Shown in pieces: positions 11,971 to 60,383 of a DNA stretch of 61,400 bases (the stretch's first letter is position 1; the number at the start of each line of letters is the position of its first letter). The DNA is taken from the NCBI GenBank assembly GCA_026414165.1, contig JAOAJN010000008.1, positions 1 through 61,400 on the forward strand, in the 5' to 3' direction. Both the position numbers and the translations under genes were made by a program. The notes under the pieces were generated by a model, which was not told the DNA's origin, did not search any database, and was given only the letters and a program-made list of their open reading frames with translations. The stretch comes from Candidatus Methanomethylicaceae archaeon (GTDB lineage: Archaea; Thermoproteota; Methanomethylicia; Methanomethylicales; Methanomethylicaceae).

Positions 11971-13278
11971 TTGCGATCCGATTCTATCTCTGAGTTTGCT
12001 ATGGCGATCCTCGCGTTACTCTCCATCCTCCTACTTCTAGTAGACTTTACAGTCCCATTGGAGCCAGGGTGGAGGCAACTCGTCTATTCTGCGGATCTCA
12101 TCATATGCTTGGTTTTCGCTCTTGACTTTGCATTAGATCTTAGGTCTGAAAAAGATAGGCTTGGGTACTTCAAGTGGCACTGGATCGACTTACTGGCGAT
12201 GGTGCCTGCCTACGCCTTCGCCATGCTCGAGACCTCGACGGTAATAGGTGCTGGACTTCGGTCTTTAAGACTCGTAAGACTTGCGAGGTTCTTGGCGGTT
12301 ATGCTAAGGATGAGGAGGAGTAAAATGCTGGTCGCTGGGGAGAAGCCCTCCAAGCGCGGTCTGCTGACCTACGCCTCTGCCGCGATCTTAGTCTCGGCCT
12401 TCTATTTGATATTCCTCCCGGACCTCGAGTCCATTCCTTACAGCCAATACATAATCGAGTCCATCCTGTCTTTGCTCATACTTTTAGTCGCCCTTGCCCT
12501 CTCAGAGCTTGTATACATCCTCTTGGTCTCTAAGATCGATGACCTTCATTCGAGACTCTCTGTCGGGAGACTTGTCAAGGTTGTTTTCATAATACTTGCA
12601 ATCGCCGCGATAATCTCCTTCATATTCAAGGAGTTAATCATATTCGTTACCTCCTTTGGCGTCATAGGTCTGCTGATTTCTTACTCACTCGCCCCGCTGA
12701 TATCTAACTTCTTCGCCTGGGTCTACATAAACATCAGGAAGACCTATATGATCGGCGACAGTGTTAAAATAGGCGATGTCAGGGGGATAGTCACTGACAT
12801 CGGATATATCATGACGACCCTCATCGAGATAGGTGACGAGTCTTCGTTTTGGTCGGTGACTGGGAGAGTACTCACAATTCCAAACTCGATGGTACTATCA
12901 AATATAGTGGCAGTATACGGCAGCCGCCTCTCGCCTGTCAGGGTTGGCGCGGTGACCTTTAACCTAGCATACGAGAGCGACCTCGGTGCCGTCAAGGAGA
13001 TGCTGATAAAGTGCGTCAGCGAATATATCCGTCCCGAGTTAGAGAAGATGCGCCAGGCTTGCGAGTCGGGCAATTGTGCCCCGATGTTCAAGGACGTGAT
13101 CGAGGCAGGACCAAGGGTTATATTCACACCCGAGGCGAGCTGGATCAACGTGACAGTCCTCTACCCGTACCCCCCTTCGAAGCTGGTCAGGTCAATGAGC
13201 GAACTCACCGAGATTATACTGCGCGAGATGAACAAGAACCCGGATGTTGTGAAGTTCCCAGTCGGCAGGAGCAGGTAA
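11971..13278 (+). CDS. MscS-type mechanosensitive channel with N-terminal voltage-sensor-like domain
   Basis: 435 aa from TTG 11971. Residues about 8-112 resemble the S1-S4 voltage-sensing unit of ion channels: ADLIICLVFALDFALDL (S2), WHWIDLLAMVPAY (S3) and an S4 with arginines every third position (RSLRLVRLAR). Three more membrane segments follow; the last (about 205-250) is the pore-lining helix of MscS, joined to the cytoplasmic beta domain (IGDSVKIGDVRGIVTDIG, then RVLTIPNSMVLSN) and the C-terminal alpha/beta domain. Small-conductance channels relieve osmotic stress; an attached voltage-sensor fold would allow additional gating. Alone in its transcription unit. Confidence 0.88.
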   Translation: MRSDSISEFAMAILALLSILLLLVDFTVPLEPGWRQLVYSADLIICLVFALDFALDLRSEKDRLGYFKWHWIDLLAMVPAYAFAMLETSTVIGAGLRSLRLVRLARFLAVMLRMRRSKMLVAGEKPSKRGLLTYASAAILVSAFYLIFLPDLESIPYSQYIIESILSLLILLVALALSELVYILLVSKIDDLHSRLSVGRLVKVVFIILAIAAIISFIFKELIIFVTSFGVIGLLISYSLAPLISNFFAWVYINIRKTYMIGDSVKIGDVRGIVTDIGYIMTTLIEIGDESSFWSVTGRVLTIPNSMVLSNIVAVYGSRLSPVRVGAVTFNLAYESDLGAVKEMLIKCVSEYIRPELEKMRQACESGNCAPMFKDVIEAGPRVIFTPEASWINVTVLYPYPPSKLVRSMSELTEIILREMNKNPDVVKFPVGRSR

Positions 13279-34543: not shown

Positions 34544-34972
34544 TTATGCAACTTTCTGCTCGATAAGATACTGATCATATACCTTCTTAACCCTCTCGAA
34601 CATGGGGCCGGTACCTTCAACGCCCTCTGCGGTCACCCTAATTCTGTCCATGACTGTTATGAAACCTGCGTCTTCATAGTATTTTACCATGTTGGGGAAG
34701 AGTTTGGCTAGTCTCTCAGACAACCCCTTAAGATCGAAAGGCTTCTCCTTCAAAAGGATCTCTGATATTGACTCTCCACGAATTATGACTCTTGGGTATT
34801 TCTCGCCACTATAAGATGCGTCCTCCAGACAAACACTCAGCGTGGCAGGATCAAACCCAAGGAGCTTCCCCTCATAGATCGCCCCCCTTGTAGTTATGAT
34901 CTTTACATTCTTTTCAACAAACCCTCCGAGTTCGCTGAGGTATCTCCGGCCACCTGATGCAGTCACACTCAC
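34544..34972 (-). CDS. Lsm/SmAP-type RNA-binding protein (SmAP3-like)
   Basis: 142 aa. Residues about 12-75 form an Sm fold (Sm1-like VKIITTRGAIYEGKLLGFDP and VCLEDAS, Sm2-like VIIRGESISEI); an additional C-terminal alpha/beta domain (residues 80-142) is typical for the longer SmAP3 group. Likely ring-forming and RNA-binding. Begins about 470 codons upstream of the tgtA end and probably shares its transcript. Confidence 0.8.
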   Translation of the reverse strand: MSVTASGGRRYLSELGGFVEKNVKIITTRGAIYEGKLLGFDPATLSVCLEDASYSGEKYPRVIIRGESISEILLKEKPFDLKGLSERLAKLFPNMVKYYEDAGFITVMDRIRVTAEGVEGTGPMFERVKKVYDQYLIEQKVA

Positions 34973-35778: not shown

Positions 35779-36756
35779 ATGTCCTCCAAGTGCACTGAAT
35801 GTAGTGGGGTCTTAATCTTTGATGATAGAAGTGGTCTTGTCTGCACCTCTTGCGGCCTCATACATGAAACAGAAGAGTTGATGCCCTCTTGTCCTTCGCC
35901 CTCTAAACAAAGACTAGGTAGCACCATCGCTAAGAAGTTTTATGTCTTTAAGGACGCTGAGGAACGTTCTCTCCCAGAACACCTGCAATTAAAATTTGAT
36001 AGACTCAAAGAACTTCAGGACTCGTTTTATAGGGGCTCATACTTAGACTTATTCCGACTATATAAGGATCTTGAGTATATCGGGGATTTCCTCATATTAT
36101 CTGACGAAGTTTTGGACAGATGTAAGGCGATATTTGAGGACTTTATCTCGAAAGTAAGAAACCCCTACAATAACTACGCCTTGCTCTTGGCAGTCTGCCT
36201 CCTGATCGCGAGCAGGGAGTTGGGGGAGAAGTCCGCCGTAAAGATCTCCGAGCTCGTCGAAGCCTTCAAGATGAGAGGTTACTCCTTCTCCAAGAAGGTT
36301 CTCGTAAGGACTCTGAGCTACGCTTCGAATATTGTCCCTATCACCAAAAAATTTAGATCCTGTGAAGAATATGTTCCTAAGGTCGTCTCAAAACTCCGCA
36401 CCGCCCCTTACATATCCGTTAGGATCAGGGTCGCAGGCATGGATCCTGATGACTACTTCAACATGCTAACCAAGATTTCTAAAGATCTGTTGTCCTCAAT
36501 CTCCCCAATACATCGGTCCGGGAAAAACCCATTTCTATTGGCTGCCTCGGCAGTTTACGTGGCAAGCACCATTTTGTCGGGTCAACCAGGTCAGTGCACA
36601 CTCTTCACAAAGGTCCAGTATTCGAAGGATGTGGGCATCGCTGAGTACACTTTAAGGTGCCACATCCGTACAATATTCGAACCCATTATTGCCGAGAGGC
36701 GCCTAACCATAGCCCCCTCCTTTAATGAGGCTACTATACTGCTACACAGATCCTGA
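35779..36756 (+). CDS. divergent TFB (TFIIB-like) paralogue beside the pilus locus
   Basis: 325 aa from ATG 35779 (GTG 35770 possible). N-terminal zinc ribbon with C-x2-C (KCTECSG) and C-x2-C (CTSCG), a short reader-like linker (RLGSTIAKKF) and two poorly conserved cyclin repeats (about 80-195 with LLLAVCLLIASRELG, and 200-310 with FLLAASAVYVAS). General TFB would keep RLG-S-P-L-T; here the reader loop is truncated and altered. Divergent TFBs can replace or assist the general factor at chosen promoters. It is next to the pilus and HerA genes, so these are the likely targets. Confidence 0.8.
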   Translation: MSSKCTECSGVLIFDDRSGLVCTSCGLIHETEELMPSCPSPSKQRLGSTIAKKFYVFKDAEERSLPEHLQLKFDRLKELQDSFYRGSYLDLFRLYKDLEYIGDFLILSDEVLDRCKAIFEDFISKVRNPYNNYALLLAVCLLIASRELGEKSAVKISELVEAFKMRGYSFSKKVLVRTLSYASNIVPITKKFRSCEEYVPKVVSKLRTAPYISVRIRVAGMDPDDYFNMLTKISKDLLSSISPIHRSGKNPFLLAASAVYVASTILSGQPGQCTLFTKVQYSKDVGIAEYTLRCHIRTIFEPIIAERRLTIAPSFNEATILLHRS

Positions 36757-37207
36757 ACTCCCTGTGCAGCTTGACAAATAACCACTCAAAACGCACCGAG
36801 AGCGCCCCTGAGATGTACTTTCCCGAATGATTCTCATTTCCAAGGAAAGCCATCTGGATCGAGTCGCATGGCTGACCTTTATACTCTTCCATCCGAAGAT
36901 CGTTTATTTCCAATTCCAAGTTTCCTTCATTCTTAAAGAGCTCCTTTACACTGTTAATCCAGCCTGTTAACTTTACTTCAAGTACCTCAGGATCTGCACC
37001 CGCCCCAAGTTCTGGAGCCCATTTTTTCAAGTTATAGCATAAGTCAAGCATTATGTTGTACGAGAACATCTCAAAGTCCTTCATCTTTTCCACAGTCTCC
37101 AGCTCAGCCAAGTGTCTACCTACATTCGCATTGATGAAGACTACACTCTGCAATATCATTAAGGCTATAACTACTTGGCTGGCTGTCAGCATCACTCCCC
37201 TTTGCAT
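36734..37207 (-). CDS. pilin-like membrane protein with large extracellular domain
   Basis: 157 aa from ATG 37207. MQRGVMLTASQVVIALMILQ is a basic leader followed by a hydrophobic helix, resembling archaeal type IV pilin precursors; the rest is a soluble domain with two Cys. The stop region overlaps the 3' end of the TFB-like gene by about 20 bases (convergent). Last gene in a run of four pilin-like genes with overlapping ends. Confidence 0.65.
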   Translation of the reverse strand: MQRGVMLTASQVVIALMILQSVVFINANVGRHLAELETVEKMKDFEMFSYNIMLDLCYNLKKWAPELGAGADPEVLEVKLTGWINSVKELFKNEGNLELEINDLRMEEYKGQPCDSIQMAFLGNENHSGKYISGALSVRFEWLFVKLHREFRICVAV

Positions 37208-37509
37208 ATAAAGTACACCTTCATGCCCCAATCATGACTAAGAAAGAACTTTAAACTACCCTCATGTGGTGGCGTTTCGGCTACAATTAGACCATTTGGC
37301 AACAAACCATTATCAGAAAAATCTGACCATTGAACTCTGCCCAAAAAGAGCTCTTGATAGAATAGCGCCCTTGCCTCCTCCCTTTCAATATAATTCCTCA
37401 TAATTTTTCTATAATCGACACCGTACTGCCCAACAAGGCTGAAAATGGTCAGCACTATGATTAATGCAGCCAACGCGTCTATCAGCGGAATGTTCCCCCT
37501 CAATTCCAT
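37192..37509 (-). CDS. pilin-like membrane protein
   Basis: 105 aa. MELRGNIPLIDALAALIIVL shows the short charged leader plus hydrophobic helix of class III pilin-like proteins; the remainder is a soluble domain ending in CKGE. It overlaps the next gene by 16 bases and follows the upstream gene after three bases. No homologue recognised. Confidence 0.6.
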   Translation of the reverse strand: MELRGNIPLIDALAALIIVLTIFSLVGQYGVDYRKIMRNYIEREEARALFYQELFLGRVQWSDFSDNGLLPNGLIVAETPPHEGSLKFFLSHDWGMKVYFICKGE

Positions 37510-37512
37510 CCC

Positions 37513-37740
37513 TCACTTTGGTGGGGTGTGATTTGCCACCATTGGATATTGATTACCGCTCACCGGGTCAGCAAAGTAATAGTAACCAAAAGCCAAATCC
37601 TCGAATTCCTTACTGAGATCCTGCAGAGCTGCTATCTGACCATACAAAAATTCCACTATTGTAGAGTTCAGCAGTACCACACAGAACAACAGCGGTACTA
37701 TCAGGGCTATTTCTGCCTGTCCTCGATTGAGCCTACCCAT
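37513..37740 (-). CDS. pilin-like small membrane protein
   Basis: 75 aa. MGRLNRGQAEIALIVPLLFC fits the archaeal class III prepilin signature (basic leader, Gly-Gln just before a hydrophobic helix with Glu three residues in), suggesting processing by a prepilin peptidase. Overlaps the upstream gene by 34 bases. Confidence 0.65.
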   Translation of the reverse strand: MGRLNRGQAEIALIVPLLFCVVLLNSTIVEFLYGQIAALQDLSKEFEDLAFGYYYFADPVSGNQYPMVANHTPPK

Positions 37741-37952
37741 TCTTTAAACCCCTCCAAGTCCACATAAACCCCCTGCAAACCTCCATTAAGAGCCTTCTCC
37801 AAAACTCCGCCGCCTTCGTCCTTCATCGACTGGCACAACCATTCAACCTTTGAGATCATTACATAGCCTATCGTCCCTGAGAGAAGCAACCAACCTACGA
37901 GGATGCTCTTGTAAACTATGATTCTAGACGGCATACTCCCAAAATCATCCAC
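37707..37952 (-). CDS. small single-span membrane protein of the pilus locus
   Basis: 81 aa with one hydrophobic helix (ILVGWLLLSGTIGYVMI) near the N-terminus, then a charged helical tail. The start could be ATG 37952 or the internal ATG at 37934. First gene of the four-gene minus-strand cluster. Could be a minor pilin or an assembly factor. Confidence 0.55.
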   Translation of the reverse strand: MDDFGSMPSRIIVYKSILVGWLLLSGTIGYVMISKVEWLCQSMKDEGGGVLEKALNGGLQGVYVDLEGFKEWVGSIEDRQK

Positions 37953-38056
37953 AATTTAAAAACTCAACCTTTTAACTCCGACCATTTATTTGGCACAGAC
38001 TATGTCCGCCTTACAATCAAAATATAAAATTATCAACACAGGGAGGCTTTCTTGTT
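37953..38056. promoter_or_regulatory. divergent promoter region of the pilus locus
   Basis: 104 AT-rich bases separating the minus-strand pilin-like genes from the plus-strand ATPase operon. TATA-like AAATATAAAATTAT near 38018-38031 suits the rightward unit; AATTTAAAAAC near 37951-37962 is close to the leftward start. Confidence 0.4.
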
Positions 38057-39766
38057 TTGAAGATTAAGGCATATAAAACTCCCTACAGAACATTTTCTAT
38101 CGAAACTTTTGAAATACTTCTCTCGGATCCGCCTCCTGAGAATCACTCCGTAATAATTAGCGGCAAGGACTCTTGGTTTTTCCGTCACGACCAAATAACT
38201 ATTATCCTCAAATTCCTTGAGGTCGTGAGGGATCTGATCCAAAAAGAAAGTCTTCCAAGATGCTACACATTTGAAATGATTCGATCCTCTTTGAGACACT
38301 CCCTCCCCTCGCTAATTAAGGCACTTTTGGATATTCCTGGGCGTAGGTGCAGGAGGCTATGGCACTCATGCGATCTGTGTGGGCAGATCTCCTCAAGCAT
38401 TCTGACCCATTTTCTGGACAAAGGCTGCGGGATTAGAGAAATTTTCTCATCCCTCGCACCACAGAGGTTACCAAACTCAAAATTGAATTTTGCCAGTCCC
38501 GCCTACTACCTTTTTCCGTTCTCGGTATACATATTCAGCGAGGGCGATGCGACAACTTACGCACCAATATTAGAGGGGATCGATCTCGTCAACCTCATCA
38601 AGGTCAGGAGTATAGTGAAAAAAATTAAAAATTATGAGAAGAACCATCTTGAAGAGCCCTCCTTGGAGCTCCAGAACATAATTGAATATAGGAAAAAATT
38701 GGCAAGCGAGACCTTCAAACTCGATAAAAAACTCTTAACATATGCGGCATACCTTTCCGTAGGTCTTGCGAAAATACTCCCTCTACTAATCGATGATGAT
38801 ATTAGCGACTTTTATTTCGACAGGGAGGAGACCTTTGCCTACATAGACCATAGGGACTACGGTCGATGCCTCACAACAACATTTTTGGACAGAAAGTCCA
38901 TGAAAAGCCTCCTAACCTTCGTAAGGATATCAGCAGACAGGGCACTGGACCGCTCATCTCCCTCCATAAGGGCGACCATAAAGACCCGCGAGTTCCATAT
39001 AAGAGTCTCCGCCGACATCCCTCCTCTCTCGATGGAAGGTACTTCGCTATGTGTCAGAAAGTTCTTCAAGAAGCCGTTGACCCTAAACAGTTTGATCTCG
39101 AACGCCACCATAACCTACGACGCTGCCCTTTACTGTATGGAACGCATCAGGGAGCGACGGAACTTCACAATATATGGGGAGAGTGGTTCGGGGAAGACAA
39201 CTTTAGCGGTAGCTTTGGATCTACTTACACCCAAAGCTTGGCGAAAGATCTCCATAGAGACGGAGATTTTAGAGAATATCTCTCAGCTCAAGTTTGGTTC
39301 TCATCAAGTTAGGCTTTTGGTCGGGGCGTCGTCTGCTGATGAACGAGATAGTCGAATATCGGTTCTCAACAGCCTTCTCCAAAAGTCTCCTGACTATGTG
39401 TTCTTCGGCGAGGTTCTTTCCAAAGAGGACAGTCTGGCCCTCTTCCAACTGCTTTCTGCAGGAATAAAGTGCATACACACCATTCACGCGGACTCCGCCG
39501 AGTCCCTTCTTCTGCGTTGGGTCTACCAGCACCAGATCCCCGTCCAACTCCTCGGAGAGCTAAATGTCCTCATACATATGCGGAAGTTTGTCAAGGGTGG
39601 ACGGCTTTTCAGAAGGATCAATAGGATCTCCGAAGTCTCCATATCTGATCCTAACGATCTACCCAAAGTCGTGGACATATTCCTATGGGACGAAGCCTCC
39701 GAGAGGCTCCTGCCAGTCTTTAAAAAGATTTGCGGAGGTAGAGCTCTTGAAGACGAATCCCCTTAA
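38057..39766 (+). CDS. type IV pilus/archaellum-like secretion ATPase (GspE/TadA superfamily)
   Basis: 569 aa, TTG start. The N-terminal half is unusual and contains a Cys/His cluster (CRRLWHSCDLCG near residue 100). The ATPase core has Walker A GESGSGKTT near residue 373, an Asp-box-like region, Walker B-like DYVFFGEVLSKED near residue 447 and the His box CIHTIHADSAESL. The normal GEVRG/GE-x-R-D arginine is Leu-Ser here. Such ATPases drive polymerisation of pilins through the TadC-type membrane protein; here both TadC halves follow directly. Confidence 0.85.
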   Translation: MKIKAYKTPYRTFSIETFEILLSDPPPENHSVIISGKDSWFFRHDQITIILKFLEVVRDLIQKESLPRCYTFEMIRSSLRHSLPSLIKALLDIPGRRCRRLWHSCDLCGQISSSILTHFLDKGCGIREIFSSLAPQRLPNSKLNFASPAYYLFPFSVYIFSEGDATTYAPILEGIDLVNLIKVRSIVKKIKNYEKNHLEEPSLELQNIIEYRKKLASETFKLDKKLLTYAAYLSVGLAKILPLLIDDDISDFYFDREETFAYIDHRDYGRCLTTTFLDRKSMKSLLTFVRISADRALDRSSPSIRATIKTREFHIRVSADIPPLSMEGTSLCVRKFFKKPLTLNSLISNATITYDAALYCMERIRERRNFTIYGESGSGKTTLAVALDLLTPKAWRKISIETEILENISQLKFGSHQVRLLVGASSADERDSRISVLNSLLQKSPDYVFFGEVLSKEDSLALFQLLSAGIKCIHTIHADSAESLLLRWVYQHQIPVQLLGELNVLIHMRKFVKGGRLFRRINRISEVSISDPNDLPKVVDIFLWDEASERLLPVFKKICGGRALEDESP

Positions 39767-40391
39767 AATATTGGCACTTTTCTTAACTTTAACCGCCTCA
39801 CTTGTCGTGTTTTTATACACTTACAATATGGCAATATCTGCGATCATAGTTGCAGTCCTTTTCCTCCTTCTCTTCTATCTGTTCTATGTTAGGTGCGGTC
39901 GAAAGTTCACTACATATGAACTCATTCTCTTTACGCATACTATGGAACTCTTTGTAGCCGTCTACACCCTGAGCGGCTCTATAAAACAATCCATTCAGTA
40001 CCTATGCCGAAGAGAATACCCGTTCTCAGAGCGCTTCAGGGCGGCTCTCCTCAGGATCAGGAACGGCTCAGATCTGACAGAGTCGCTAAGGTGGGTGTTC
40101 AGGGGAAACGCTCGGTATAATGAGTGGTTTACATCATTGGCTAGTGGCTCGATCAGCGATGCCCAGGATCTATTCTCAATGTGGGAAAGTAGTGCGGAAG
40201 AGGCTATACTGAAAGTTGACGATCTTCTTTCATTCGTTATAGTATTCTCCACACTCTTGCCCGTGGTAATCGTCATAATGCTAATGGTCTTCGGTGCAAA
40301 ACCGCCTTTTCTTTATCTACTGGTCATTTTCCAAATACTGCTATTTCAGGGGGTATACCGTTGGATAAGAGATCTGTTCTCTTTATTATAA
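39747..40391 (+). CDS. TadC-type pilus assembly membrane protein, first half
   Basis: 214 aa from TTG 39747, placed by the strong ribosome site GGAGGT at 39734-39739; overlaps the ATPase end by 20 bases. Two hydrophobic helices at the N-terminus, a cytoplasmic helical T2SSF-like domain (YELILFTHTMELFVAVYTLS) and two C-terminal membrane helices. Length is half of a full archaeal TadC/FlaJ; the next gene supplies the other half. Confidence 0.7.
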   Translation: MKTNPLKILALFLTLTASLVVFLYTYNMAISAIIVAVLFLLLFYLFYVRCGRKFTTYELILFTHTMELFVAVYTLSGSIKQSIQYLCRREYPFSERFRAALLRIRNGSDLTESLRWVFRGNARYNEWFTSLASGSISDAQDLFSMWESSAEEAILKVDDLLSFVIVFSTLLPVVIVIMLMVFGAKPPFLYLLVIFQILLFQGVYRWIRDLFSLL

Positions 40392-41281
40392 TGAGACCTA
40401 ACCCGCTCGGGACGATCCTAACGGTGGCGCTGATCTTAACAATCCAAAGTCACTACGAATACTTGCAGACGATTGCTTTGGGCACGGCATACTTCCTCCT
40501 CCTTAACAGCACTTTTAACCTCGAAAAGGTAAACCTCAGAGAGAAGGAGATATTGACGTCGTCATTCTTACTCTCCTTCGCGAAAGCCCTGCGAAGATCC
40601 TCTCCGGAGACTGCCTTTATGAGGGCACTGTCCTCAGAAACAATATTAGAATCGAGATCAGAAATTTTACCGAAATCAGGCTCAGAATCAAGATCAAATT
40701 TAAGGTCATGCTCAGAATCAAAATTAGAATCAAAAACAAACTTTAATACTCCACAACTGGTGAGCCTAATTGGAAGGATAAGGAACGGTGTGCCACTCTC
40801 TGAGGCGTTGAAGCGGATAAAAGGCATGAATGATACGGGCTCTCTTTTACCCTATCTGCTCTCTGACCTCCTATCATTTAGCTCCGAAGAGGCGTCAAAG
40901 AGAATTCGCAACTATGCGAGGTATCGCAAAGAAAAGGAAAAGATAAAGTCTGCACTATCTGTGAAGTTGGCGGTCGTCTCCCTAAGATTCAGGGTGTTAA
41001 GCCTCATCTGCTCGTCATCATTGGCGGTCATCGCCTTTGCCTCCCCGATCCTTTATTCCATAGCAGGTCTGAATTGGATAGGGACCTCCTTAGGCGCCTA
41101 CAAGGCATTATCATTCGACAACGAAATCATTGCTCCATGCCTTTCATCAGTGATCTTCTCAACATATGCCTACTCTAAGCTCCTGCCCGATGTGAATGGA
41201 CTCAAGCTCTCAATAGCATCTGCCCTCGTATTTTTGGCTACCGAAGTTGCTCTGCTCCTCATCATCGGTTGGCGCATTTAA
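40391..41281 (+). CDS. TadC-type pilus assembly membrane protein, second half, with repetitive insert
   Basis: 296 aa from ATG 40391, which overlaps the preceding stop (TAATG). Two membrane helices, then a helical cytoplasmic part (REKEILTSSFLLSFAKALRR) interrupted near residues 85-125 by a Ser/Glu/Lys-rich insert encoded by degenerate GAATCA-like repeats (40620-40745), then a second T2SSF-like stretch and three membrane helices. The pair of proteins replaces the single FlaJ/TadC of other systems. Confidence 0.65.
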   Translation: MRPNPLGTILTVALILTIQSHYEYLQTIALGTAYFLLLNSTFNLEKVNLREKEILTSSFLLSFAKALRRSSPETAFMRALSSETILESRSEILPKSGSESRSNLRSCSESKLESKTNFNTPQLVSLIGRIRNGVPLSEALKRIKGMNDTGSLLPYLLSDLLSFSSEEASKRIRNYARYRKEKEKIKSALSVKLAVVSLRFRVLSLICSSSLAVIAFASPILYSIAGLNWIGTSLGAYKALSFDNEIIAPCLSSVIFSTYAYSKLLPDVNGLKLSIASALVFLATEVALLLIIGWRI

Positions 41282-41309
41282 ATACCGTCCATTTATTTCC
41301 GGGTGAAAA

Positions 41310-41525
41310 ATGAAACGAAAGAGCATTAGGGGGTCCCCTCTTGTAGAGGAGGGGCTGCTTCTTGGTTTATCTATAATCACCCTGACCGTAGTTCTCTCAA
41401 TCATAGTGGGCTTACTCTCCGGCGTAAAAGATACCTTTGACCTTTCAATATTTAGGGGTGAGGAGTTCATGAGCCAGCTCCAGCAATCTATACAGAGAAT
41501 ATTACAGTACTTTAGGATAGGGTGA
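41310..41525 (+). CDS. pilin-like small membrane protein in the ATPase operon
   Basis: 71 aa. MKRKSIRGSPLVEEGLLLGL followed by a hydrophobic helix (ITLTVVLSIIVGLLSG): short basic leader, Gly, a Glu inside the helix start, all typical for class III prepilins. Then an amphipathic tail. Its stop overlaps the HerA-like start (GTGA). Confidence 0.65.
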   Translation: MKRKSIRGSPLVEEGLLLGLSIITLTVVLSIIVGLLSGVKDTFDLSIFRGEEFMSQLQQSIQRILQYFRIG

Positions 41526-43321
41526 AGATGCCTATCCTCCCTTCCCTACTCTTACTGTTGATAATACTGATTTTTCTTTATGATTTCTTGGACTCTAAAG
41601 TTTTGATTACTGTTGTATGCTCCTCCATTCTGGGCATTGCTGTTGTGGCTCTAAGGTCTCACACTATCGCTCCTCTAAGGGCGCTGAGCATAAAGAGGCA
41701 CTTGATAAATGTAAACAATAGAGATAGTTGCACTGCCTCGGCGATAGTGCTTACCTCACCTTCAGACGATGGCTGGAATGGAAGTAAGCTCAGTTACGAG
41801 CGCCTCTCAAACTTTTCTGAGACTTTGGCATCGCTGGGAGTGCCCGTGGCATATGTGTCTTTTTTCTACCCGTCTAACACATTCGGCTCCCGGGGACCTT
41901 CAATAAGCCGTGCCTTCCTTATGGTCTGGTCCAACGGAAAAGAGAGGGGCAATCGTCGCCCCGCCGATTATATGTCTCAACTGGAGGGCATTTGCGAGAT
42001 CGCCCTCCCAGGTGTAAACGCAAAGAAGATGAATGATCGTGATCTTTCCTGCCTCCTAAACTACCCCCTTCATATCGCGGTGACCAAACTTGTAAAACCA
42101 TTAGATCACATAAAGAATCGTGTAGAACCGGCACCCCTCTTACCTCCCCCTCAGTCCAAAGATCCTTCTGATGTTTTTCCTTTCCCTGAACCCGATGCCA
42201 TAAGTGGCGACGGTCCTCTCTTGGGAATGGTTCAGTCTAATGGTAAGGATGTTGCCCCACTCGCATTATACTTGAAAGACATACAGCGCCACGTCTCAAT
42301 ATTTGGGACAACAGGTAGTGGGAAGTCTACGACCGCGATCTCATTGGCGCTCCGCCTCTTTTCTATGGGCATCTCCATCCTGATCTTAGACTGGCATGGC
42401 GAGCACACGAGGGTAGTCAGGGCCGCAGGTGGAAAGGTCTACTCCCCAGGGTCAGCAGAAAATGGTCTGACAATCAATCCCATGTATTGCCCAAATATGA
42501 AGGAAATGGACTTTCAAATAGAGTTTGTCACCGACATATTCTCGCAGATCTTCCAGTTTACGCCTCCTCAGGCGTATATGTTTCGAGAGGCACTAAGGTC
42601 CTCGCTTAAACTGAAGGCAAACCCGGCGATATCTGATTTGATAAGGGAACTCTCTCTCATTCCCATACGTTCGAGTTGGGATCATGAGACCCGGATGGCC
42701 CTGATGAGGCGGCTTAAGATATTTACTGAGGGCACTTGTGGCATGGCTCTCGACGGAAAAGACTCCTTCTTCAGGGAAGAGATCTTCAGGGGTCTGGTTT
42801 CTATAGATCTTAGCAATCTAAAGGACGTGAATAGCCGCACCATTTTCTCCAACTTTGTCCTGAAGATCGTCTACGACCATGCAGTGAACAATGAAGCCCA
42901 AGAGCGACTTAAGCACGTTTTGATAATAGAGGAGGCTCAGAACATCATACCTCCTAGGAGGCCAGATGCGCCCAGAACAGTGGGCGAGCGAATACTTGGA
43001 GAGCTTCGGAAGTTCGGCGAGGGGGTTGTGGTTATTTCACAGTTCCCATCGTCTATATCCAACGAAGTCATAAAGAATACCTCCATAAGGATAATCCATA
43101 CCGTAAGGTCCGGCGAGGACTTGGAGGTTCTTGTCAACTCCATGTCATTGGACGATCGGCAGAGGGAGGCACTAACCCTCCTTTCCACGGGCGAGGCTGT
43201 TGTGAACCTCCCCTACAGATCATCCAACCTCCTCGTAAAGATCTCACCTGACCCTATACTCTCTGACTTTGATTCTAAGACAGTAGCTCCATTATCTTAC
43301 CTTCCCTCTCCAGCGTCTTGA
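41522..43321 (+). CDS. membrane-anchored HerA/VirB4-like (CedB-like) DNA-translocating ATPase
   Basis: 599 aa. Two N-terminal hydrophobic helices (SLLLLLIILIFLYDFLD, ITVVCSSILGIAVVAL) anchor it. Walker A IFGTTGSGKSTTA near residue 262 is followed by LILDWHGEHTRVVRAAGG; Walker B LIIEEAQNIIPPRR near residue 468 and a downstream Arg-rich HTVRSGEDLEVL complete the HerA/DUF87 core. The DWHGE motif is typical for HerA/VirB4. Membrane anchoring plus pilus context recalls CedB, the ATPase for DNA import in Crenarchaeota. Start GTG overlaps the pilin-like stop; it converges with the AK6-like gene (47-base overlap). Confidence 0.85.
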   Translation: MKMPILPSLLLLLIILIFLYDFLDSKVLITVVCSSILGIAVVALRSHTIAPLRALSIKRHLINVNNRDSCTASAIVLTSPSDDGWNGSKLSYERLSNFSETLASLGVPVAYVSFFYPSNTFGSRGPSISRAFLMVWSNGKERGNRRPADYMSQLEGICEIALPGVNAKKMNDRDLSCLLNYPLHIAVTKLVKPLDHIKNRVEPAPLLPPPQSKDPSDVFPFPEPDAISGDGPLLGMVQSNGKDVAPLALYLKDIQRHVSIFGTTGSGKSTTAISLALRLFSMGISILILDWHGEHTRVVRAAGGKVYSPGSAENGLTINPMYCPNMKEMDFQIEFVTDIFSQIFQFTPPQAYMFREALRSSLKLKANPAISDLIRELSLIPIRSSWDHETRMALMRRLKIFTEGTCGMALDGKDSFFREEIFRGLVSIDLSNLKDVNSRTIFSNFVLKIVYDHAVNNEAQERLKHVLIIEEAQNIIPPRRPDAPRTVGERILGELRKFGEGVVVISQFPSSISNEVIKNTSIRIIHTVRSGEDLEVLVNSMSLDDRQREALTLLSTGEAVVNLPYRSSNLLVKISPDPILSDFDSKTVAPLSYLPSPAS

Positions 43322-43847
43322 TCCAGTTTATACTGCCCGCTCTCTTGCCCTTCCCCTCTTTTACTACATTCAAGACCTCTTCAATAACGGCATTTACATC
43401 GCCACTGGTACTATCCACTTCGAATACTCTATCTTCACCAAACTCCTCCACCGCCTTAATGAGGCAGTAGTCCAGAAGCTCAGCTTGGGCATTCTCCTTT
43501 ACCTTCTCCTTTTTGTATCCCTTCTTCTTCAGCCTTTCCATCAGAACCAAAGGGTTAGTCCTGAGGACTATGGCGCACCTTACGTACTCTTCTGGGACCA
43601 AATCTCCCCAATGCCCCTCTATTACGAATCCTACCCCCTCCCCTAGAATCTCATATAGTTTTTCCCTGATCTTTTCTTCCTTTATTCTCCATGTGTCCCT
43701 TTTGGCATCATAGTCTCCAATCCCACCGATCTCTTCTGCCAACTTGTTCAGATCTAACAATTTGAAACCTAGGATTTCTGCTAGTTTTTTCGCAATAGTG
43801 GTCTTTCCCACACCTGGCGTGCCAGTTATAACAATCGAATTCTTAAT
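43275..43847 (-). CDS. AK6/Fap7-like adenylate kinase, start codon non-canonical
   Basis: P-loop NMP kinase, about 190 aa. Walker A GTPGVGKTT at the N-terminus, GHWGDL after FVIEG (the NMP-binding part) and LRTNPLVLMERLKKKGY (LID/base) identify the AK6/Fap7-type group that helps 18S/16S rRNA maturation. The only canonical start in frame lies inside the P-loop (43811); the sequence IKNSIVIT before it must belong to the protein, so ATT at 43847, or an ATG at 43854 displaced by a single extra T, is the real start. Confidence 0.8.
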   Translation of the reverse strand: MKNSIVITGTPGVGKTTIAKKLAEILGFKLLDLNKLAEEIGGIGDYDAKRDTWRIKEEKIREKLYEILGEGVGFVIEGHWGDLVPEEYVRCAIVLRTNPLVLMERLKKKGYKKEKVKENAQAELLDYCLIKAVEEFGEDRVFEVDSTSGDVNAVIEEVLNVVKEGKGKRAGSINWIKTLEREGKIMELLS

Positions 43848-59255: not shown

Positions 59256-59344
59256 GGGCCCGTGGCCTAGCATGGATTAGGGCGTCGGCCTCCGGTGACC
59301 TCGGGGATAGTCGATGGTCGAGGGTTCAAATCCCTCCGGGCCCG
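59256..59344 (+). tRNA. tRNA-Arg (CCG) with a 13-nt intron
   Basis: Acceptor GGGCCCG pairs with CGGGCCC, discriminator G, T arm GAGGGTTCAAATCCCTC. Anticodon stem TCGGC pairs with GTCGA (one G-T). Between them are 20 bases where 7 are expected, so a 13-base intron lies 3' of the anticodon at the canonical 37/38 position. The anticodon is CCG. CTCCG of the loop can pair with CGGGG in the intron, giving a small bulge-helix-like splice structure. Confidence 0.9.
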
Positions 59345-60383
59345 CTTGAGGTCAAGTAAATCTAAAATATGTCTTCCCTTTAATGACGAGTAGCAAGTTT
59401 AGATGCCCACAGATTCCAAATGAGATTAAGCGTCATCATGAAAATTTAATGGGCGGGTCGTAGAACTACTAAGACTTATAATTACTAATATTTGGAGTGA
59501 CATATTATTTTCCACTCAAATTTAGTAGATATAATCTCAAGAAAGTTATTAATGGTGTCGGAGGAAGCTTTCTGAAAATTAGAAATCAGAGATCATGATA
59601 AACCTCAATACTTCAATAAATTCATCAATGTCTTATTTCTGTCTTTTAGCAACACAATTCTTACTTAAAAGTCAACCTTCTACCCATAATAAAATGGGGA
59701 GGTTGAGTAAAAACTTTTTTGATAATGTTTGTCCTTTCATTGCTCGCATCTACCGCCTTTATAACCTTTAAGATAGAACCTGAGGCTAGACGTCAACAAA
59801 GAATCATTTTATATTTCCAAGGGATGTTGCCCATAGTTTTGGATGGATCGGACTCTGCAACCACTACCTCCTCCGCCCTTAAGAGGGGTCTCCCAGAAAA
59901 ACAATAAAGCTTGGTCGTCGATATACCATATAAATGGAGCTCAATAATCTTGGTCGCCTTTCGCATAATCAACAAAATAAACTCCTATTTCAGGATACTT
60001 CTTAAGCTTCCTTATCTTTTATCTCATGATTGTAATGATTGTAATCGGAATATTGGGCAAACACTTAAAAGCCAAAATAAAGATTATTGAAAAAAGCTAA
60101 TATGCCATTAACAACAATCTTTCTATTTTACATGAACCTTCCAAACACTCGAAAAATGAATACATTATGATACGACTCGTACAAAGTTGTTGTTCTCTTA
60201 TATAATATCTCAAGTCGACTCAATCTGAAGTAATTGTTGAAAGTTTTGAAGACGGTTTTCTTATACAAAAGGTTGAATTTCTGGATTTGCCTCCACTCAT
60301 TTTAAGATCGGCATCATGTATTCAAGGTTAAATTTAAAATTTAATGTTTCCATCAGCAATAAAAACGATGCAATTACATTGCC
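59345..60383. other. 1-kb intergenic region, no supported gene
   Basis: AT-rich sequence between tRNA-Arg and argS. Short open frames of about 60 codons (for example 59719-59907) show no domain, ribosome site or codon bias. Nothing recognised. Confidence 0.45.

Follow-up and report, generated by a model that had tools for sequence, protein, structure and literature searches.

Do the genes for a pilus, a putative DNA translocase and a transcription factor that lie side by side on an archaeal chromosome encode one machine, or are they merely old neighbours? We addressed this question for a gene island at positions 35779-43321 of a 61,400-nucleotide stretch of DNA (the window) from a Candidatus Methanomethylicaceae archaeon (assembly GCA_026414165.1, contig JAOAJN010000008.1). 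The window stems from an 85.7% complete archaeal metagenome-assembled genome (G000, contig C41), and the named-record loci closest to the island, at 82-84% identity, belong to Candidatus Methanomethylicota / Methanomethylicales. According to the list of open reading frames (ORFs), the island holds ten genes, bounded by an arcTGT-Lsm pair and a kinase-thermosome-histone run. They encode a paralogue of the transcription factor TFB (TFBx), four small proteins on the minus strand, a divergent type IV pilus (T4P) assembly ATPase, two TadB/TadC-like membrane proteins (TadCa and TadCb), a short class III pilin (pilE71) and a CedD-like ATPase. All ORFs described by the initial annotation are present where it had placed them.

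We assign a probability of about 0.5 to the reading that the island encodes one chromosomal surface machine, in which a pilus and the CedD-like protein would serve DNA exchange under the control of TFBx. This reading builds on the observed gene content, gene order, family relations and joint loss of the island. In such a machine, the ATPase and the TadB/TadC-like pair would lengthen, and perhaps also retract, a thin pilus made of the 71-amino-acid class III pilin, which the minor pilins would prime, cap or top. The CedD-like protein, putatively hexameric by analogy to HerA, would be a membrane-anchored DNA pump located at the base of the pilus or close to it, and would transport DNA across the membrane for cell-to-cell exchange and recombinational repair. 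Expression of the module would be turned on by TFBx together with a canonical TFB, as TFB3 turns on the ups genes in Sulfolobales, where the Ups/TFB3 model places DNA exchange under damage control. For the island, we infer pilus formation, DNA as the cargo, the direction of transfer and TFBx control from the features described below.

Gene order and joint loss of the island

A comparison of gene order in related genomes, as suggested by the initial annotation, showed that copies of the island in the order Methanomethylicales have the same gene order at the same place wherever a contig spans the site. The same order is found in many other Thermoproteota families, again between arcTGT-Lsm and kinase-thermosome. 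Because it recurs both in the order and in other families, the arrangement is more than chance. In a phylum sample of 398 genomes, pilE was present in 76 and CedD-wide matches in 125, and pilE adjoined CedD in 38 genomes from 13 families (hand count of the sample tables). The fetched neighbourhoods contain TFBx, the ATPase, TadB/C-like proteins and pilE between Lsm and kinase/thermosome, and many of them also contain CedD.

Five genomes of the same family (G002, G003, G004, G021, G022) have an empty site, in which the kinase gene lies immediately after Lsm, with the thermosome gene next wherever the contig extends that far. Based on the thermosome tree, these empty sites require at least two independent losses. 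With the whole island gone in five relatives, its genes were therefore lost as one module, which bears out the earlier description of a compact module of pilus, HerA-type ATPase and TFB. Joint loss at a fixed site suggests an old pilus-plus-DNA-exchange system. A partial copy in G008 (L061 983-2707) consists of TFBx, a pilin remnant and a C-terminal piece of CedD only, and may reflect either internal decay of the island or an assembly fault.

Both borders were conserved in the gene-order comparison: the Lsm protein on the left (34544-34972, minus strand) and an AAA_18 P-loop kinase on the right (43275-43811, minus strand). In G005, a kinase and thermosome gene fragment is duplicated beside the island (L053:9093-9585).

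The CedD-like ATPase and TFBx

The gene at 41522-43321 (plus strand) encodes a CedD-like, membrane-anchored HerA/VirB4-type putative DNA translocase. The protein has an N-terminal hydrophobic helix and a HerA/VirB4-type C-terminal ATPase domain, and its structure model resembles HerA as well as the VirB4 ATPase domain, the latter with a TM score of 0.76 by target, in agreement with the membrane-anchored HerA/VirB4-like ATPase recognised initially. The label "CedB-like" given to it was wrong, as the protein matched the CedD profile with 237 bits, that of HerA with 67 and that of CedB with 31. Identity with CedB was rejected, CedD being far closer and CedB being undetected in the order. Note that the CedD equivalog cut-off (NF053655) is 600 bits; because the score lies below it, we use the name CedD-like rather than CedD. 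A Desulfurococcales copy (L080) also falls under this cut-off, at 228 bits, and the Desulfurococcales are counted among the orders holding CedD (PMC11868833). In two genomes of family f36 (L210:5736-7558, L261:8481-10312), CedD is split into two ORFs, one for the N-terminal part and one for the ATPase part.

CedD is essential for DNA import in Saccharolobus islandicus and is needed in import only (PMC11868833). This argues against a DNA-export (conjugation-like) or protein-secretion device, although HerA/VirB4-type motors do drive export, both in type IV secretion systems and in the transjugation of Thermus (PMC11868833). The island and border genes that were examined include no recognisable relaxase or mobile-element gene, and we consider such a device improbable. 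Bacterial-type competence via ComEC was rejected, since ComEC was undetected in 23 genomes of the order.

TFBx (35779-36756, plus strand) was characterized by profile searches and alignments. It has the Zn ribbon and two cyclin-like repeats of TFB/TFIIB, connected by a shortened linker with a B-linker remnant (RLGS). The B-reader (EWRAFD...RSRxG) is missing, with a short stretch between Zn ribbon and B-linker, whereas it is present in both other TFBs of the window's genome. Pfam and NCBIfam gave weak TFB matches only. However, the TFBx family profile matched solved TFB/TFIIB cores (archaeal and human) with an E-value of 1.7e-10, and the two-repeat core aligned with the canonical TFBs of the same genome with an E-value of 7e-23. 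The initial annotation had raised the possibility that the TFB-like protein is the only, essential TFB. This does not hold, as the genome encodes two other, canonical TFBs and relatives without TFBx exist; TFBx is non-essential in the family and is not the sole TFB of the window's genome. TFIIB homologues were described as common neighbours of archaeal T4P loci (Makarova et al., PMC4858521), and the TFB-T4P link was thus already known.

Several results weigh against a single pilus-plus-DNA-exchange machine. Some families keep TFBx, ATPase and pilE without CedD in the island, and some have no CedD match in the genome at an E-value of 1e-40. CedD in turn occurs without pilus genes in Desulfurococcales-type and Sulfolobaceae genomes. 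The separation of the HerA-like gene from pilins, named initially as a point that would speak against the proposal, was thus found in part, with CedD pilin-less in these two groups and the pilus CedD-less in several families. As CedD and the pilus each persist alone in several families, the pilus can occur without CedD, whose role as a partner may be optional. Searches for CedB in the 23 genomes of the order gave no match over the cut-off, the cross-matches being the CedD gene and weak HerA-like genes only. TFBx showed no similarity to TFB3 beyond the Zn ribbon (probability of 0.5% in hhalign, core versus core), and orthology with TFB3 was unsupported by sequence. Finally, ANTTTC, the UV hexamer of Sulfolobales, is absent from the divergent promoter region (37953-38056), a result that we regard as uninformative. 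Upstream of TFBx, one copy of ANTTTC is present per strand.

These patterns could also be explained by an adhesion or aggregation pilus under TFBx, with CedD as an old positional neighbour beside the thermosome gene that acts in its own DNA-import complex. We regard this as possible, if rather doubtful. It would account for genomes in which the site holds only one of the two, CedD in the Desulfurococcales type and the pilus in others, as well as for the division of labour in Sulfolobales, where Ups pili mediate aggregation and Ced moves DNA (PMC9905601). It fits less well with the adjacency of pilE and CedD in the 13 families, with the four-base overlap of the two genes in the window, and with the lack in the order of a CedB to partner CedD. 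In addition, pilE and CedD vanish together in the Methanomethylicales losses, yet a single deletion could take functionally unlinked neighbours.

Secretion ATPase, putative membrane platform and pilins

The machine proposed here would be powered by the 569-amino-acid ATPase (38057-39769, plus strand), assigned by Pfam, motifs and tree as a divergent T4P assembly ATPase. It matched T2SSE (PF00437) with an E-value of 9e-15 and 54.6 bits (Pfam cut-off 24.9), and profile comparison related it to the solved archaeal secretion ATPase 2oap, to FlaI and to CpaF. The P-loop (GESGSGKT) and the Walker B glutamate (in GEV) are both present. The loss of the GE-x-R arginine reported initially is real: the window protein reads FFGEVLSKEDS, with GEVL replacing GExR, and the arginine is invariantly missing in its family. 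It is not a local oddity, however. The locus clade has GE[VIL][LQ] at Walker B (SEIQ in three), whereas canonical archaeal T4P ATPases have GE-x-R, and the loss is therefore a clade mark rather than a local defect. In a quick maximum-likelihood tree calculated from 61 ATPases, a long branch (SH-aLRT 100, length 1.26) separated the 39 locus sequences from the canonical archaeal T4P ATPases. Six group changes were counted on this tree, but they trace to five canonical sequences that a regular expression had wrongly labelled as locus type and do not reflect any mixing of the two groups. The locus ATPases thus form a distinct deep clade by sequence. Note that the ATPases of three Thermoproteus-type loci (L282-L284, see below) were left out of this tree. 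Orthology with the Ups ATPase was rejected, since the two Metallosphaera T4P ATPases gave much stronger matches to the canonical query than to the locus profile. Four N-terminal cysteines (C69, C98, C105, C108) are conserved in the locus ATPase and may form a metal site; they are reminiscent of the description of arCOG05558 (PMC4858521).

The ATPase gene is followed by those for TadCa (39766-40391, plus strand; start approximate) and TadCb (~40361-41281, plus strand), two putative half-size T2SSF membrane proteins. Neither has a Pfam match of its own. Of the two half-size TadC proteins described initially, TadCa is probably T2SSF, given a relative that reaches the Pfam cut-off with 25.2 bits. 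TadCb was pulled into T2SSF by iterated profile search only, and its model (pTM, the predicted TM score, 0.51) gave no usable fold match in the PDB; its fold is putative. Note that the widened TadCa/TadCb profiles absorbed canonical T2SSF rows, making the hhalign values partly circular, so that the pull-in itself alone counts as evidence. The split TadC, taken initially as a sign of novelty, is ordinary and was rejected as such: another ATPase locus with two T2SSF genes is present in the same genome, and clade 4B was described with two TadC-like genes (PMC4858521).

The probable major subunit is pilE71 (41310-41525, plus strand), a highly conserved class III (archaeal type IV) pilin of 71 amino acids, recognised by motif and conservation. 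It has a short positive N-terminus, a cleavage region of the G/xxxxE type (RG/SPLVEEGLLLG; slash, predicted cleavage) with a conserved core, and a hydrophobic helix; identity across the order is 48-96%.

The four minus-strand genes were classified by sequence and gene order. Minor pilin-like A (36734-37231, 165 amino acids, MQRG/VMLTAS) is convergent with TFBx, with a 23-base overlap of the ends. Beside it, in order of rising coordinates, lie minor pilin-like B (37192-37509, 105 amino acids, MELRG/NIPLID), minor pilin-like C (37513-37740, 75 amino acids, NRG/QAEIALIVPLL), with a TadE-like N-terminus, and the small membrane protein D (37707-37952, 81 amino acids). All four had been called pilin-like; three of them have a hydrophobic stretch preceded by an R-G motif of the cleavage type, and D has no clear prepilin motif. 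The divergent intergenic region (37953-38056) contains a TATA-like element, AATATAAAAT, 5' of the ATPase gene. Other genera and distant relatives have a small, coiled-coil-like ORF here, which separates the last pilin gene from that of the ATPase (L054 ~12530-12690, L060 5395-5577, L075 4971-5231). It is absent from this region of the window and from the window's genus.

The island site in other Thermoproteota

Fourteen Sulfolobaceae loci have the genes for TFB3, the thermosome and CedD close together (in one set, a few kb apart) and no pilus genes, and RpoG, Lsm and arcTGT adjoin them where the fetched stretch reaches. The comparison with TFB3 and Ced made in the initial annotation is strengthened by this position of tfb3 and cedD next to the thermosome gene. 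The identities of SiRe_1715 as CedD (PMC11868833) and SiRe_1717 as Tfb3 (PMC10470591) fit such proximity, and both Tfb3 (PMC10470591) and CedD (PMC11868833) are induced by DNA damage in S. islandicus. A Desulfurococcales locus and other lineages have CedD at the site without TFB or pilus.

The island resembles several known systems in part. Like the island protein, CedD of the Ced system (S. islandicus SiRe_1715, NF053655) is a HerA/VirB4-type ATPase with an N-terminal membrane anchor, and crenarchaeal cedD has the same neighbourhood of arcTGT, Lsm, (RpoG), kinase and thermosome. Unlike Ced, the island gene is embedded in a pilus operon, scores under the equivalog cut-off and has no CedB in the order. 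Ups pili with TFB3 share the combination of pilus, Ced-type motor and degenerate TFB. In contrast to the island, the Metallosphaera T4P ATPases are canonical, TFB3 has the Zn ribbon alone in common, and no T4P operon lies at the site in Sulfolobaceae. Canonical archaeal T4P/Tad pili (FlaI/CpaF-type ATPase, TadB/TadC) have a homologous ATPase, two T2SSF-type proteins (putative ones in the island) and a class III pilin, but the island ATPase differs by GE[VIL][LQ] for GExR, its separate deep clade and its fixed partner TFBx.

The three Thermoproteus-type loci (L282-L284) have RpoG, a one-repeat TFB, a locus-type ATPase and a membrane protein at the same site. Their ATPases gave locus-type E-values of 2e-14 to 2e-20, compared with 1e-8 to 4e-11 for the canonical query. 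Judged by sequence, this site fits Thermoproteales subclade 4D, an ATPase/TFIIB/RPB8 system without pilins and of unexplained function (Makarova et al. 2016, PMC4858521). Like the island, the 4D system (arCOG05558, arCOG05559) combines the same position with a divergent ATPase with N-terminal cysteines, a TFB gene and RpoG; unlike in 4D, the island TFB has two cyclin repeats, and pilins, a TadB/TadC-like pair and the CedD-like protein are present. Following Makarova et al. on the pilin-less 4D with TFIIB and RPB8, the ATPase/TadC/TFB core might have a transcription-linked role instead of building a pilus, and RpoG/Rpb8 and a TFB gene do adjoin the ATPase (PMC4858521). We consider this very unlikely, as complete copies of the locus encode minor pilins and a pilin that is strongly conserved, and RpoG belongs to the housekeeping border, being found also at pilus-free sites. 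Moreover, pilE-like short pilins are encoded away from the 4D-type locus in Thermoproteus- and Vulcanisaeta-type genomes (L288:7013-7207, L223:9457-9693) and are candidate pilins for the 4D ATPase.

Tentatively, and at slightly less than even odds, we suggest that a single TFB-pilus-CedD DNA-exchange island lay beside the thermosome gene in the Thermoproteota ancestor. The present separate systems would be its remnants: TFB3 and CedD in Sulfolobaceae, CedD in Desulfurococcales-type genomes, and TFB with the ATPase in Thermoproteales (4D), with the whole machine kept in Methanomethylicota and others. Three elements that were so far treated apart meet at one conserved site, namely TFB3 as a factor of the DNA-damage response, the translocase CedD and the unexplained Thermoproteales ATPase/TFIIB/RPB8 system, and the pilin-less 4D system gains a pilus context. 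No publication linking CedD to such a T4P/TFB locus was found in the open-access literature. The Methanomethylicales belong to a poorly known group of methanogenic archaea, and neither CedB nor ComEC was detected in this order; here the island is a candidate for a DNA-exchange machine encoded at a single locus. It also makes testable the idea that a pilus operon carrying its own TFB gave rise to the archaeal DNA-damage response.

Elsewhere in the window, ARAGORN predicted a tRNA-like gene of undetermined identity with a two-base anticodon (59256-59345). In the same genome, two ArnR-like regulator matches (C2:9958-10635 and C2:20648-21229; L280, L281) share a contig with a canonical T4P ATPase locus.

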